Source: Hyphomicrobiales bacterium
Lineage (GTDB): Bacteria; Pseudomonadota; Alphaproteobacteria; Rhizobiales; Xanthobacteraceae
Assembly: GCA_019243195.1 (NCBI GenBank)
Contig: JAFAUQ010000239.1
Span: 1-36,575 of the forward strand
Length of the DNA stretch: 36,575 nt
Direction: 5' to 3'
Shown one piece after another: positions 12,616 to 18,963 of this stretch. Position numbers and translations under genes: made by a program. The notes under the pieces were generated by a model. The model saw nothing but the letters and a program-made list of their open reading frames with translations, did not search any database and was not told the DNA's origin. The first letter of the stretch is position 1, and each line of letters starts with the position of its first letter.

Positions 12616-12778
12616 TCGGTAATTAGGCGCTCCATCGTCTCGCTACGTAATGGGGCGCGACATTTGTCCCGCGCCCAACAACGCAACGGATTAACGCAAC
12701 TATCTGCGCCGATTGGCGTTTACTGCTGGGCCGTTCGTTCGGCGTGGCCCGCGGTCGCGATCGGGTGCGGGGTTGCTC

Positions 12779-15154
12779 ATGCGGGAAATGCCTTCCGATT
12801 CGGTGCCGTCGGAGGAGACGGACGCCGCACATCAAACGGCGCCTGATCCGTCCCCAGCGGAGGAGGGCAGTCGGACTCTGGCCTCCGGCCGCGCCTTTGT
12901 TACAGCGCTCGGCGCCGATCTGGCGGTGGTCGGGCATCGCGTCGCGCGGTCGTTCCGAGCGTTCACCCGGAGAACACCGCGACCATCGCTGCCCCCGCGG
13001 CGCGTCGGCGCGTCACAGCGCGTCGCCACCGGCCTCCTGCGTGGAATTATTGCCGTCGTGGTAGCCGGGCTTGTGACTTTCGCCGGCATGATGGTTTGGG
13101 CGTTGCACGATCTGCCGCCGGAACGCCCGGTCGGGGATGGGAACGCGCCCTCTTTCATCCTCGAAGCATCGAACGGAACCTCGCTCGGCCGGGTCGGCGC
13201 GCTCAAGATGCCGGATGCGAAGCGCAAGGATTTTCCTGACGTACTGGTAAAAGCGGTGATCAGCATCGAGGATCGCCACTTCTACAGTCACTGGGGCTTC
13301 GATCCGCAGGGGATGGTTCGGGCGCTCCGTCGCAACTTCGCCGCCGGCACGATCGTTCAAGGCGGCAGCACGATCACCCAGCAGGTGGTGAAGCTGCGCA
13401 TTCTTGGACATGAGCGCACGCTCACGCACAAACTTCGCGAAGCGCTGGTTGCGATGTGGCTCGACATGCATCGCTCGAAGGACGAAATCCTCACCGAATA
13501 TCTCAACAGCGTTTATCTCGGGAACGGTGTCTATGGCATGGCCGCGGCCGCACGGCTCTATTTCGACAAAAGCCTTGCCGACCTGACGCTGCCGCAAGCC
13601 GCGATGCTCGCCGGCATGATCCAGTCGCCCTCGCGCACCAATCCGTTGCAGAATTTGCAAGGCGCGCAGGCGCGCGCCGCAATGGTGCTCGACGCGATGC
13701 GCGAGACCGGCGCGGTCGATGCCACGGCGGCCCAGGAAGCCAAGGCGCATCCGGCGGTGCCCCATTTGTCGGAAGCGGCGTTGCGCGCCGGCTCGTGGTT
13801 TGCCGACTGGATCGCCAGTGAAGCCGGCGGGGTGACCGGCTCGGATTCAACGAGCATGCGGCTGCGCACGACGCTTGATCCCGGTCTGCAGCAGATCGCC
13901 GAGCAGGCGGTCGCGCGCGTGCTCGATGCCGAAGGTGCGCGGCGCCACGTCTCACAAGCGGCGCTCGTCGCGATGCGGAAGGACGGCGCGGTCGTCGCGA
14001 TGGTCGGGGGGCGCGACTATCAGGCGAGCCAATTCAACCGCGCGGTGAATGCCCAGCGCCAGCCGGGCTCTGCCTTCAAGTTGTTTGTTTATTTCGCGGC
14101 GCTGCGCAATGGATTGACGCTCGATGATACGGTCGACGCCCGGCCGCTCGAGATCAAGCACTGGGAACCGGAGAACTACGGGGGCCGGCACTACGGCCGC
14201 GTGCCGCTCACCGAAGCCTTCGCCGAATCGATCAACACCGCGGCGGTGCGCCTCGCCCAGCAGGTCGGATTGAACCAGGTGATCGCCGCCGCGCGCGATC
14301 TCGGCATCACCAGTCGGCTGCCGGCGGTGCCGAGCCTGCCGCTGGGCACTGCCGACATGAACCTGCTCGAGCTGACCTCGGCCTATGCCGCTGTCGCGGC
14401 CGGCAAGATGCCGGTCAAGCCGTGGGGCATTTCCGGGCTCGGTGTCGAAGGCCAACCCCGGCTGCAATCGATGGGCGCGCCGACCGTCGCCACGCGGCCG
14501 TTGCAGCCCTATCAGCAGCCGCTCGTTGAATTGTTGGAGGAGGTGGTGCGGCACGGCACCGGCCGCGCCGCCGCCCTCGACGGGATTGCCGCCGGCAAGA
14601 CCGGCACCTCGCAGGATTATCGCGACGCCTGGTTCATCGGCTTCAACGATGAGCTGGTCGTCGGCGTCTGGGTCGGCAACGACGATCACAGCCCGATGAA
14701 TCGCGTCACCGGCGGTTCGTTGCCGGCGGCGATCTGGAAGAATTTCATGACCGCCGCGACAAACGTGGTGGCGCGCGAGGAGCCGCCGGCCGAAGCGACC
14801 GCGCCGCAGCCGCAAGGACACGCCGAGCAGAATCCGCCGGCGAGCGCGCAGGCGCCTCAAGCTGCCGAGTGCGATTACCAAGCATGCGCGCGCACTTATC
14901 AATCGTTTCGCGGGTCGGACTGCACCTATCAGCCCTATGGCTCTTCGGAGCGGCGGGTATGCGACAAGGCTTCAAAGCGACGGACGGTCCAGTTCCCGTT
15001 CTCGCCGGATTCGCTGTTCGCGCCGCGGCGGGAACAGCAGGGGAGGGCGGGATGCAACGTCGCCGCCTGCGAGGCCACTTACCAGTCGTTTGATCCGAGC
15101 GATTGCACTTATCAGCCCTACGATGGCGGTCCGCGCCGCGTCTGCTCGAAGTAG
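12779..15154 (+). CDS. Class A penicillin-binding protein (PBP1A family transglycosylase/transpeptidase) with duplicated Cys-rich C-terminal tail
   Basis: GT51 motifs VISIEDRHFYSHWGFDPQGMVRALRRN...GGSTITQQVVK; transpeptidase motifs RQPGSAFKLFVY (SxxK), SIN (SxN) and AGKTGTSQDYRDAWFIGF (KTG). Start is ATG 12779 or 12713. Confidence 0.93.
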   Translation: MREMPSDSVPSEETDAAHQTAPDPSPAEEGSRTLASGRAFVTALGADLAVVGHRVARSFRAFTRRTPRPSLPPRRVGASQRVATGLLRGIIAVVVAGLVTFAGMMVWALHDLPPERPVGDGNAPSFILEASNGTSLGRVGALKMPDAKRKDFPDVLVKAVISIEDRHFYSHWGFDPQGMVRALRRNFAAGTIVQGGSTITQQVVKLRILGHERTLTHKLREALVAMWLDMHRSKDEILTEYLNSVYLGNGVYGMAAAARLYFDKSLADLTLPQAAMLAGMIQSPSRTNPLQNLQGAQARAAMVLDAMRETGAVDATAAQEAKAHPAVPHLSEAALRAGSWFADWIASEAGGVTGSDSTSMRLRTTLDPGLQQIAEQAVARVLDAEGARRHVSQAALVAMRKDGAVVAMVGGRDYQASQFNRAVNAQRQPGSAFKLFVYFAALRNGLTLDDTVDARPLEIKHWEPENYGGRHYGRVPLTEAFAESINTAAVRLAQQVGLNQVIAAARDLGITSRLPAVPSLPLGTADMNLLELTSAYAAVAAGKMPVKPWGISGLGVEGQPRLQSMGAPTVATRPLQPYQQPLVELLEEVVRHGTGRAAALDGIAAGKTGTSQDYRDAWFIGFNDELVVGVWVGNDDHSPMNRVTGGSLPAAIWKNFMTAATNVVAREEPPAEATAPQPQGHAEQNPPASAQAPQAAECDYQACARTYQSFRGSDCTYQPYGSSERRVCDKASKRRTVQFPFSPDSLFAPRREQQGRAGCNVAACEATYQSFDPSDCTYQPYDGGPRRVCSK

Positions 15155-15228: not shown

Positions 15229-16485
15229 ATGCCGGCCATGGCCGCCCCGAGCGCGCGCAATGATTTTGTCGGCACCTTGCCGCAGAAGGTGCGGCGCGAT
15301 TTCTCGTCCGTCGGCTACGACGAGGCGATGCGTCGCGCGCGCGAGATCGTGCCGGTCCTGCGCGAGCGCGCGCAAGCGGCCGAAGACGCGCGCATGCTCA
15401 TCCGCGAGAACGAGCAGCTGCTGCACGAAACCGGGCTGTTTCGGTTTCACCAGCCGAAGGCGTTCGGCGGCATGGAGCTCGCCTTCGTGGCGCTCGTCGA
15501 CATCGCGGCGGAGGTTGCCCGCGGATGCCCCTCAACCGCCTGGAACATCGGCAATCTCGCCTGCCATCACTGGATCCTCGGCTATTACGAACCCGAGACC
15601 CAGCATGAAGTCTGGGACGCCAATCCGGACGCGCTGATTGCTTCCTCGATTGCGCTTGCCGCCGGCCGCGCCCGAGAGGCGCCGGGCGGGTTCATCGTCA
15701 ACGGCCGCTGGCCGTTCTCCTCGGGGGTCGACAACTGCGATTGGAACATGCTCGCCGTCACCGTTTATGACGACGATGGCAAGACCGCGGTCGATTGGCG
15801 GCTGTGTTTGGTTCCGAAGTCTGACTACGAAATTATCGATACCTGGTTCGCCATGGGGATGGCGGCGACGGGCAGCAAAGACATCAAGGCGTCCGAAGTC
15901 TTCGTGCCCGAGCGCCGGGCATTGGCGCTGGCGCGCTGCCGCGGCGGGCTCGAGCATCCCGGCGCGGCGCTCAATCCGGGCCCATTGTTTCGCATCCCGA
16001 TCGTCGCTGCCTCCAGCCACCCGCTCGCGCCCGCGGCGGTGGGCGCGGCCGAAGGCGCCTACGAACTCTTTCTTGGCTCGATGGCCAAGCGCCTCGGCAC
16101 CTACACGGGCGCGCGGGTGGCCGACTTCCAGGCGGTGCAGATCAAGCTCGCCCGCGCGCGCTGCCTCATCGACTCGGCGCGCCAGCTGCTGCGTGACTCG
16201 GCCATCGCATTCCAGGCGGCGGCCGAGCGCAACGAAGTTCCCGACCTCGCAACCAAGCTGCGGTTTCGCGCGCAGTCGGCATTCGCGGTCAATCAGGCGC
16301 GCGAGGCGGTGGAAACGCTGTGGTCATGCTACGGCGCGCAGGGACTCTACACGCGCGATCCGCTGCAGCGGCACCTGCGCGACGTGTTTGCCATGAGCCA
16401 GCACTTCTCGTTCAATTTCGACATCGCCGGTTCGGCCTTCGGCCTGCACGCGCTCGGCGGGCCCTATGCGAGTCCGACGATGTGA
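15229..16485 (+). CDS. Acyl-CoA dehydrogenase family protein (HsaA/DszC-like flavin monooxygenase subgroup)
   Basis: Start ATG 15229 (MPAMAAPSARNDFVGTLPQKVRRD...). LHETGLFRFHQPKAFGGMELAFVALVDIAAEVARGCPSTAWNIGNLACHHWILGYY...HLRDVFAMSQHFSFNFDIAGSAFGLHALGGPYASPTM. Confidence 0.9.
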   Translation: MPAMAAPSARNDFVGTLPQKVRRDFSSVGYDEAMRRAREIVPVLRERAQAAEDARMLIRENEQLLHETGLFRFHQPKAFGGMELAFVALVDIAAEVARGCPSTAWNIGNLACHHWILGYYEPETQHEVWDANPDALIASSIALAAGRAREAPGGFIVNGRWPFSSGVDNCDWNMLAVTVYDDDGKTAVDWRLCLVPKSDYEIIDTWFAMGMAATGSKDIKASEVFVPERRALALARCRGGLEHPGAALNPGPLFRIPIVAASSHPLAPAAVGAAEGAYELFLGSMAKRLGTYTGARVADFQAVQIKLARARCLIDSARQLLRDSAIAFQAAAERNEVPDLATKLRFRAQSAFAVNQAREAVETLWSCYGAQGLYTRDPLQRHLRDVFAMSQHFSFNFDIAGSAFGLHALGGPYASPTM

Positions 16486-16486
16486 G
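16411..16486 (+). repeat. 76-bp direct repeat, left copy (3' end of acyl-CoA dehydrogenase-like gene)
   Basis: ttcaatttcgacatcgccggttcggccttcggcctgcacgcgctcggcgggccctatgcgagtccgacgatgtgag; 70/76 identical by eye to 18888-18963. Confidence 0.95.
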
Positions 16487-16543: not shown

Positions 16544-16572
16544 TTGACGCCTACGTTTATGTTTCATATGAT
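16544..16572 (+). promoter_or_regulatory. Sigma70-type promoter of the RES/Xre cassette
   Basis: TTGACG (16544-16549), 17-bp spacer, TATGAT (16567-16572), upstream of ATG 16606. Confidence 0.6.
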
Positions 16573-16586
16573 GTGCTGCATGAAAC
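16561..16586. promoter_or_regulatory. Candidate operator: inverted repeat GTTTCAT-N12-ATGAAAC overlapping the -10 and start region
   Basis: gtttcat (16561-16567) and atgaaac (16580-16586) form a perfect 7-bp inverted repeat centred just downstream of the -10. Confidence 0.45.
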
Positions 16587-16605: not shown

Positions 16606-17931
16606 ATGGCAGCTCAAATTCTGCCGATGCCCGGCATAAAGGCGCCGAGCACCCCGATAGGGCACTTTGTTCGACTGGGCGAGACTGGACATCGTCAGTT
16701 GTCCGATCTGCACGCGCAGGGCCGCTTTTCCCCGAAACGCGTCGTGGTCGATGCGTCCCGCTTCCATCATCAAAAAGAGCTAATAGGTGCGTTGCGCTCA
16801 GCGGGCACTCAAATCGTATTGGATACCAAAGCGGCGGAGCTATCGGCCGCCTCAAAGTTCTCTGGATTTGCTCAAGGTGCCCCTTGGGCATCAGCAGCAA
16901 AAGATAAGCCGTTAAGCCCCGATCATTTTCGGCATGATGCCCCAGGCGATGTCATTGGTCAGATTGCGCGATTTGCAGTACAGAACAGGGTGCATGCGGT
17001 ACTGTCACCGAGTCATTTTCTCAGCAAGGGTTCGGCGACAGACTGGTTTCGAATTGATCTTAGAGCTTGCTGTGCGCTACGAGAGGCATTGGACCGTGCC
17101 GGCGGACGGCACATCGGGATTGATTACCTAGTTCTAATTCCGCATGTGGCGCTTGACGATCTCGCCGAGCGTGGCCAGATCCTTGCGTCGGTGAAGAATT
17201 TGCCCTTCGACAATCTTTGGATTCGGGCTTCTGGTTTTGGGGCTGATTCCGGCCCACTCACAACGAGACGGTACATCAATTCGCTTTCAAGAATGAATAA
17301 CTTGGGTAAGCCGATTGTCGCGGACTATCTGGGTGGGCTAGTCAGTCTAGCCGCGGAGGCGTTTGGCTCAATAAGCGGCTTCGCCGAGGGAGTTGGTGAA
17401 CGCGAGCGATTCGATGCACGAGAATGGCACAAGTCGCCGAAACCGCGCGACGACGATGATGTATTCGGACATGCGAGACGTGTGACAATCGCTGGCTTCG
17501 GACGCACAGTTACGTGCGCTGAATTGGCGAAGCTCTGTGAAGCGAAGGGTGGTCGTCGGCTCGTGGCATGCACTAATAGATCGTGTTGCCCGCATGGGCT
17601 GTCTGACGTGTTAGTAAACCCCAAGAGACATAGTTTAAATTACCGCTCAATTCAGATTCGTAGTCTTGAGCAAACGCCAGACTTAAGCCGCCCGCAGCAT
17701 TTTTTGGACGGCGAGATGACGCGCGCAGATCGCCTTTCACGACAGATAAAAGAGTTGAAAACCGGAGATGATCTGCTCACGAAGCGATTGACGGATCATA
17801 GCCATCGTATGGAAAAGCTTCGGGCAACTTTGGAGCATTTCCAAGAGACGAGAGGAGCCAATCATCCTCGTGCGCTGCCGATCGTCGAACGAGGGAACGT
17901 GGCGGAGCATCAGGGGGCAGACAGCGCATGA
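16606..17931 (+). CDS. Uncharacterised 441-aa protein, first gene of the RES/Xre cassette
   Basis: MAAQILPMPGIKAPSTPIGHFVRLGETGHRQLSDLHAQGRF...VDASRFHHQKELIGALRSAGTQIVLDTKAAELSA..., Cys cluster ACTNRSCCPHG, C-terminal helical/coiled region. ATGA stop-start overlap with the next gene. Confidence 0.85.
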   Translation: MAAQILPMPGIKAPSTPIGHFVRLGETGHRQLSDLHAQGRFSPKRVVVDASRFHHQKELIGALRSAGTQIVLDTKAAELSAASKFSGFAQGAPWASAAKDKPLSPDHFRHDAPGDVIGQIARFAVQNRVHAVLSPSHFLSKGSATDWFRIDLRACCALREALDRAGGRHIGIDYLVLIPHVALDDLAERGQILASVKNLPFDNLWIRASGFGADSGPLTTRRYINSLSRMNNLGKPIVADYLGGLVSLAAEAFGSISGFAEGVGERERFDAREWHKSPKPRDDDDVFGHARRVTIAGFGRTVTCAELAKLCEAKGGRRLVACTNRSCCPHGLSDVLVNPKRHSLNYRSIQIRSLEQTPDLSRPQHFLDGEMTRADRLSRQIKELKTGDDLLTKRLTDHSHRMEKLRATLEHFQETRGANHPRALPIVERGNVAEHQGADSA

Positions 17932-18275
17932 ATGCGAAGCGAGATACTGTCGTTCGATATATTGATGAACTTGAGAAGGTTGGTGGCCTAAAGGGCACCG
18001 ATATAGCCAACATCGCTCAAGTATCAAAAGCGACTGTGTCAAGGTGGGTGAACGGCGCAATGAAGCCGCGCCCGCACATGCAACTTATTTTGTCGGATTT
18101 GCACTACATCGTCGGCCGACTTCAGGAATATTATTCCGCTGATGAAATTCGTATCTGGTTATATGCGCGCCATCCGCAGCTTGAGGGCAAACGCGCAATT
18201 GATATCATCAACGAGGGTGAGTCAGAACGCGTGTTGAATGTCCTCGATCGCCTTGACGCAGAGGCATATCTCTAA
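17928..18275 (+). CDS. Xre/MbcA/ParS-type antitoxin (HTH plus DUF2384-like C-terminus)
   Basis: MNAKRDTVVRYIDELEKVGGLKGTDIANIAQVSKATVSRWVNGAMKPRPHMQLILSDLHYIVGRLQEYYSADEIRIWLYARHPQLEGKRAIDIINEGESERVLNVLDRLDAEAYL; HTH plus WLYARHPQLEGKRAIDII. Confidence 0.88.
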   Translation: MNAKRDTVVRYIDELEKVGGLKGTDIANIAQVSKATVSRWVNGAMKPRPHMQLILSDLHYIVGRLQEYYSADEIRIWLYARHPQLEGKRAIDIINEGESERVLNVLDRLDAEAYL

Positions 18276-18278
18276 CAT

Positions 18279-18857
18279 ATGGTTGCACCACACCGAATTC
18301 GCGACAAGCTCCTAATCGATGCATTAGAGGGAATTACTCCAGTGCCATTCGATGGAATGGCGTGGCGCGTGGTCCGCCAAGGGCGCGACGTGCTGATGGG
18401 TAGTTCGGCGGGCGGGCGCTGGGACGATGGCACTTTCGATGTCCTTTACGCCTCCCAAAAAGCCGACGGTGCCGTTGCTGAAAGATATTTTCACCTCAGC
18501 CGGGGACTTCCAGTATTCCCGTCCCGACCAGTCTATCACCTGTTTCAGTTGCGAGTCTCGATGAAACGAGCTCTTCATCTCGCAGATATGACCGCCATTG
18601 CACGGCTAGGTGTGGACACGGCGCGATACGGCGCGCTTTCATATGCCGATCGAACGGATGAATATCCGCGCACACAGGATATCGGAGAAACAGCTCTGTT
18701 TGTCGGGTTTGATGGCCTGATCGTTCCAAGCGCAAGATGGGACTGCGCCAATATTGTCCTATTCTGTGACCGCGTTCCTCCCGATAAATATGAAGTCAGC
18801 CGAGATCACGGTCCGCTTGATTGGAGTGAATGGCAAACGAAGCCATTCGGGTTTTGA
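18279..18857 (+). CDS. RES-domain toxin (NAD+-targeting RES family)
   Basis: AWRVVRQGRDVLMGSSAGGRWDDGTFDVLYASQKADGAVAERYFHLSRGLPVFPS...FDGLIVPSARWDCANIVLF carries R..., E(RYFH) and S(AR) positions typical of RES domains; follows its antitoxin by 3 nt. Confidence 0.9.
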   Translation: MVAPHRIRDKLLIDALEGITPVPFDGMAWRVVRQGRDVLMGSSAGGRWDDGTFDVLYASQKADGAVAERYFHLSRGLPVFPSRPVYHLFQLRVSMKRALHLADMTAIARLGVDTARYGALSYADRTDEYPRTQDIGETALFVGFDGLIVPSARWDCANIVLFCDRVPPDKYEVSRDHGPLDWSEWQTKPFGF

Positions 18858-18887
18858 CCCGTCGATCTTACACTTTGCTCGGCACTG

Positions 18888-18963
18888 TTCAATTTCGATA
18901 TTGCGGGCCCGGCCTTCGGCCTGCACGCGCTCGGCGGGCCCTATGCGAGCCCGACGATGTGAG
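18888..18963 (+). repeat. 76-bp direct repeat, right copy (displaced 3' end of acyl-CoA dehydrogenase-like gene)
   Basis: ttcaatttcgatattgcgggcccggccttcggcctgcacgcgctcggcgggccctatgcgagcccgacgatgtgag; encodes FNFDIAGPAFGLHALGGPYASPTM-stop. Confidence 0.95.

Follow-up and report, generated by a model that had tools for sequence, protein, structure and literature searches.

The window analysed here, a 36,575-nucleotide stretch of DNA from a Hyphomicrobiales bacterium, carries on its forward strand a compact group of three genes. The first of them, orf1 (16606–17931), starts with an ATG codon preceded by an AAGGA ribosome-binding-like site and encodes a 441-aa protein, ORF1, for which a beta/alpha barrel resembling that of tRNA-guanine transglycosylase (TGT), a Cys3-His set and C-terminal helices are predicted. 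It is followed by xre (17928–18275), which encodes an antitoxin of the Xre/MbcA/ParS type, and by res (18279–18857), which encodes a RES-domain toxin of 192 aa. The stop codon of orf1 (TGA) and the ATG of the antitoxin overlap within the sequence ATGA at 17928–17931. The antitoxin stop codon (TAA, 18273–18275) and the toxin ATG at 18279 are separated by 3 nt, giving the pair an operon-like layout. The coordinates thus bear out the overlap and the short gap noticed in the original prediction. Elsewhere in the window, an ORF at 12713–15154 resembles penicillin-binding proteins and carries, twice near its C-terminus, the Cys-rich motif SFxxSDCTYQPY...RRVC.

RES-Xre toxins form a large family. In Pfam, the window toxin matches PF08808 (RES) with 81.8 bits for a cut-off of 23.2 (E 7e-23), and the antitoxin matches PF09722 (Xre_MbcA_ParS_C) with 25.7 bits for a cut-off of 24.5. 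In the PDB, the antitoxin matches MbcA (6fkg_C, E 1.6e-10) and the toxin weakly matches MbcT (6fkg_A). The NCBIfam profiles of the ParT/ParS subfamily, NF049844 and NF049845, give 17.8 and 25.9 bits, far under their curated cut-offs of 110 and 90 bits, respectively. Residues R30, Y57, and E68 of the RES protein are invariant across 33 homologues, and the toxin is a probable NAD+ phosphorylase. A RES family search in the window genome, a draft that is 66% complete, finds seven RES-domain genes and one ORF1. Hence, ORF1 goes with the RES clade of the window toxin rather than with RES genes at large.

Upstream of orf1, the promoter-like sequence reported earlier is indeed present, as a sigma-70-like TTGACG-17-TATGAT arrangement (16544–16572, forward strand) with 10 of 12 consensus matches. 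Promoter-like sites are found three times in the region for 1.7 expected, so that this one is weak evidence if considered alone; a TTGAC box resembling a -35 element is also found upstream of many homologues. The -10 element is overlapped by an operator-like palindrome, GTTTCA-N14-TGAAAC (16561–16586). In its general form, RTTTCA-N(10-18)-TGAAAY, this motif occurs upstream of 27 out of 32 cassettes (4.2 kb of sequence) and a single time in the remaining 364 kb of these loci; the motif was defined from these same upstream regions, so the count reflects conservation rather than a blind test, even if the contrast is still large. A second GTTTCA-N14-TGAAAC palindrome, seen in the window only, lies inside res (18542–18567), consistent with the single copy counted outside the cassette upstream regions. 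It may be due to chance or may be a secondary operator. In Pseudomonas putida, the Xre-RES complex represses its own promoter via a palindromic repeat (PMC12204516). In the window, the palindrome at 16561–16586 is a probable target of the Xre antitoxin complex, and the three-gene module is probably autoregulated.

Homologous loci were collected using ORF1 as a query. A tblastn search of plasmids gave 16 records, all below 60% identity, and GTDB genomes, scanned by an alignment-based method, yielded 19 loci. The tabulated set is made up of 33 loci, namely 13 plasmid loci, 19 genome loci, and the window, several of which are closely related to each other and are not independent counts. The 32 loci other than the window were retrieved by ORF1 alone, so the linkage with Xre and RES is not built into the set. 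The homologues show 21–50% identity and belong to Rhizobiales, Rhodobacterales, Acetobacteraceae, Sphingobium, and Gordonia. One apparent homologue (L041) was rejected, as reading of its ORF revealed a LeuD-like protein.

The proposal of a three-component system turned on the neighbourhood of these homologues. Rather than being mostly devoid of a toxin-antitoxin partner, orf1 is adjoined by xre and res in 33/33 tabulated loci, window included, and the antitoxin-toxin pair is kept in all of them. Two further loci with an intact orf1 (L038 and L039) also contain xre and res sequence, res being split in L039. The linkage persists down to about 21% identity, from Alphaproteobacteria to Actinomycetota. 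The association goes beyond a frozen gene order, since orf1 and the Xre-RES pair are divergently arranged in Gordonia bronchialis. Moreover, pairwise identities of ORF1 correlate with those of RES (r = 0.95) and of Xre (r = 0.87), with a Mantel p of 0.001, the minimum for 999 permutations. The reverse search, tblastn with the window RES protein, gave 16 plasmid records, among which the RES-matched plasmids without an ORF1 match are two Pannonibacter plasmids only, both retaining an orf1 remnant. Recurring at every homologous locus tabulated, the gene neighbourhood is not due to chance, and orf1-xre-res is a conserved operon-like module, a three-gene variant of RES-Xre. The three-component system is therefore well supported by the linkage, the shared operator-like palindrome and the co-divergence of ORF1 with RES.

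RES-Xre modules have been described as two-gene systems (PMC2701414, PMC12457610). The cassettes considered here resemble type II systems such as MbcT-MbcA, ParT-ParS, NatT-NatR, and the Xre-RES pair of P. putida in having an adjacent pair with the antitoxin first, a palindromic promoter site and a frequent plasmid location. In contrast, they have a third gene in every intact cassette. A two-gene organisation was not encountered as such among these loci, as the two-gene forms that were found keep remnants of orf1.

The window cassette is flanked by two 77-bp direct repeats that are 92% identical and occur nowhere else in the genome. The left one (16410–16486) corresponds to the 3' end and stop codon of an acyl-CoA dehydrogenase gene, and the right one (18887–18963) is a duplicate of this 3' end. 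Five of the six codon differences between the copies are synonymous, so that a functional gene seems to be the source of the second copy. Across the cassette, the GC content is 0.53 instead of about 0.67, and GC3 is 0.52 instead of about 0.8. No integrase gene is seen between the repeats. The arrangement resembles an integration at the 3' end of a gene, and the window locus is horizontally acquired. A relative (G013) has the acyl-CoA dehydrogenase gene without the cassette, its downstream DNA being too diverged to define an exact empty site. Flanking repeats of the 77-bp type are not seen at other cassettes. Looser direct repeats (71–74% identity) flank those of a Mesorhizobium huakuii plasmid (L005, 3058–3452/6224–6611) and of the Roseivivax THAF30 plasmid (L008, 3730–3914/6352–6529). 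Many copies are located on plasmids, and some adjoin plasmid replication genes (repABC in certain cases), a TniB/TniQ cluster or integrases.

These features raise the question of a plasmid-addiction or mobile cassette in which RES-Xre works alone, ORF1 being a selfish or metabolic passenger outside the toxin circuit. The plasmid location of many copies, some of them near repABC, the foreign GC3 of the window cassette between its 77-bp repeats and the loss of orf1 in several lineages, described below, all fit such a passenger. However, a linkage maintained in 33/33 loci across such divergence, the co-divergence of ORF1 with RES and the pocket-like residues conserved in ORF1 argue against it, and we consider it improbable.

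What ORF1 may do is best approached from its predicted structure. No family match is found for ORF1 in Pfam, NCBIfam, PHROG, or PADLOC, in agreement with the earlier view that it could not be assigned to a named family; searches of the same collections with ORF1 and 13 homologues give nothing convincing. In an AlphaFold2 model built from 19 sequences (mean pLDDT 84.7, pTM 0.86), beta and alpha elements alternate to form a barrel, after which come helices. The alternating N-terminal half and the Cys cluster had both been described from the translation and are present. When the model is compared with the PDB using Foldseek, the best match is TGT (E 9e-6), with TM-scores of at most 0.53 on the query and 0.62 on the target. 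Among the first 50 PDB matches, in which TGT entries are redundant so that ranks are not independent, the only other proteins are pyruvate kinase and xylanase, with TM-scores of about 0.3 and similar E-values. A second AlphaFold2 model was obtained for L029, a homologue 41% identical to ORF1 and devoid of the Cys cluster (pLDDT 82.1). Its first 29 PDB matches are all TGT, with a best E-value of 9e-7 and target TM-scores of at most 0.57; both predictions were built on the same homologue set and are not fully independent. Hence, structure prediction followed by Foldseek, the check suggested for this protein, places TGT at the top for both models. Hits in the viral library also include queuine tRNA-ribosyltransferases of phages and of archaeal viruses.

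At the sequence level, homology between ORF1 and TGT is undetectable: there is no match to PF01702 or to any other Pfam or NCBIfam family, and HMMER against the PDB gives no TGT. HHalign comparisons with TGT, with one archaeosine-type TGT and with AP_endonuc_2, URO-D, and Beta_protein (PF14350) show no sequence-level relationship, TGT scoring no better than the three other families, which served as TIM-barrel controls. An identity with the PF14350 'beta protein' was dropped on this basis. A TGT-like fold of ORF1 is thus supported at the level of predicted structure, and a TM-score of 0.5–0.6 at about 10% identity fits either a remote or a convergent similarity. As a separate observation, the window genome encodes, besides the housekeeping Tgt, an archaeosine-type TGT homologue (L073, contig C231, 6547–7437) that scores below the cut-off of TIGR00432 and above that of TIGR00449.

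The original prediction saw in ORF1 a TIM-barrel-like protein with a metal site. The barrel holds in both models and is now sharpened to a TGT-like fold, while the putative site is present in 27 homologues and absent from five, so the Cys3-His set is not universal to the ORF1 family. Its codons, C322, C327, C328, and H342, lie at 17569–17631 and would encode a zinc site. All four residues are kept in 27/32 homologues and all four are lost in the other 5/32; being kept or lost as a unit, the set behaves as a putative metal site would. TGT also uses three Cys and one His. Other conserved residues, D73 (32/32), R207 (31/32), and D240 (30/32), suggest by their conservation a ligand pocket. From a by-eye mapping of strand order, D73 would occupy the place of a conserved Asp of TGT, and the position of the nucleophilic Asp, in the last strand, would correspond to E260. 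This last position varies among homologues, being occupied by H, Q, S, N, or another residue, and classical TGT chemistry has probably been lost in ORF1. To summarise the relationship, ORF1 resembles the Tgt superfamily, DpdA included, by its predicted barrel, by the Cys3-His set placed before C-terminal helices and by its best PDB match. It differs by the lack of a match to PF01702, to TGT profiles, or to DpdA, by the C-x4-CC-x13-H spacing of its Cys3-His set, which is unlike that of TGT, and by a nucleophile position that is not conserved according to the strand-order mapping.

These residues bear on the idea that ORF1 would be an active enzyme, catalysing a TGT-like base exchange or glycosidase reaction on tRNA, DNA, or a nucleotide and acting as a second effector, a self-marker or a processor of the RES product rather than as a sensor. 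A TGT-like fold with a Cys3-His set would suit such an enzyme, and the conservation of D73 (invariant), R207 and D240 (both near-invariant) agrees with an active site. Furthermore, Dpd systems use homologues of TGT to modify DNA (PMC12839542). However, the variable position E260 argues against classical chemistry, and no dpdB/dpdC or 7-deazaguanine gene is annotated among the neighbours of the homologues in plasmid loci. We therefore regard an active enzyme as unlikely.

Natural losses of orf1 provide another angle. In L002, L033, L035/L036, and L040, orf1 is mostly deleted, with break points that differ, and xre and res are open and full length. Thus, most of orf1 has disappeared from at least four lineages with Xre-RES intact, and the palindrome is still present in L002, L033, and L036. 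The reverse case is found in L039 (G367, contig C62), where res is in two pieces next to an intact orf1 and an intact xre. If ORF1 were an antidote or an essential chaperone, cells without it should not survive except with an inactive toxin, which makes a regulator, a sensor, a second enzyme, or a passenger likelier. Hence, ORF1 is probably not the antitoxin, and the deletions suggest that it is not needed to neutralise RES. The same observations weigh on an accessory role in which ORF1 would stabilise the antitoxin or act as its co-repressor, like the chaperone of three-component toxin-antitoxin-chaperone (TAC) systems. In favour of such a role, orf1 is the first gene of the operon, overlaps the xre start and lies behind the same promoter and palindrome, and the cassette resembles TAC by its extra gene. 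In contrast with TAC, ORF1 is naturally dispensable and has no chaperone family match; were it a chaperone that the antitoxin cannot do without, its loss should set the toxin free. Such a stabiliser appears distinctly improbable.

A regulatory role is compatible with the company kept by the cassette. In a Celeribacter plasmid (L010), qatA and qatB adjoin it; at L010 6232–8963, the qatA start overlaps the end of res, Qat being directly downstream. A Dinoroseobacter locus has GajB as a neighbour, Acetobacteraceae loci have a Type IIG restriction enzyme, and Rhizobiaceae loci have a retron-type reverse transcriptase, L023 carrying in addition a gene weakly like GapS1, under its cut-off. These defence neighbours describe the loci and are not an enrichment test. 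A precedent comes from type IV CBASS, where Cap10, a protein of the TGT family, has been remodelled to bind a protein partner (PMC11996544). ORF1 would share with Cap10 the reuse of a TGT-family fold in a conflict system, and differ from it in having RES-Xre as a partner. No CD-NTase or Cap9/QueC is found among the neighbours of plasmid homologues as annotated in the deposited records. Literature joining TGT, RES, and toxin-antitoxin was not found in open-access PMC text, consisting mostly of titles, abstracts and passages.

Taking these data together, ORF1 is most likely a regulator of RES that has a TGT fold and binds a ligand or RNA. The Xre-RES complex would bind the palindrome and repress all three genes, Xre would neutralise RES, presumed to act as an NAD+ phosphorylase, and the ORF1 barrel would bind a nucleobase, a nucleotide, or an RNA. 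Upon a signal, possibly phage infection, ORF1 would modulate the Xre-RES complex and RES would then deplete NAD+. ORF1 would thereby be a regulator or a sensor and not an antidote. The linkage, the operator-like site, the TGT-like fold, the dispensability of orf1, the defence neighbours, and the Cap10 precedent speak for this role. The lack of sequence homology with TGT and, for the window model, the other TIM barrels lying near TGT in E-value speak against it, as do the phage-related results given below, and a costly passenger would likewise explain why orf1 is lost in nature. The whole reading, that of an acquired and autoregulated module in which ORF1 modulates Xre-RES as a regulator or sensor, is accordingly a tentative one, to which we give slightly less than an even chance.

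Participation of the module in phage defence, for which the original prediction saw ORF1 as a possible trigger, is plausible, some loci lying next to defence genes. The more specific scenario, in which a TGT-fold trigger sensing a nucleobase or RNA frees RES from Xre during phage infection and produces a RES-based abortive infection, is rather doubtful. Searches of phages and viral contigs found no homologue of ORF1. In addition, a published screen of one RES-Xre system, NatRT, gave no phage phenotype (PMC11535050). According to this 2024 study, no RES toxin-antitoxin system had until then been linked to immunity.

Beyond the earlier reading of the sequence, the present analysis adds the TGT-like fold, the operator-like palindrome, and the 77-bp flanking repeats. 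With ORF1, the TGT fold gains a possible use other than base exchange and, if the abortive-infection scenario is true, ORF1 would be, after Cap10 of CBASS, another case in which this fold has been recruited to control an effector of defence. The natural deletions of orf1 offer ready comparisons, and the operator-like site is amenable to biochemical test. For the RES family, a strictly linked protein with a recognisable, if predicted, ligand-binding fold gives a handle on what might switch the toxin on.
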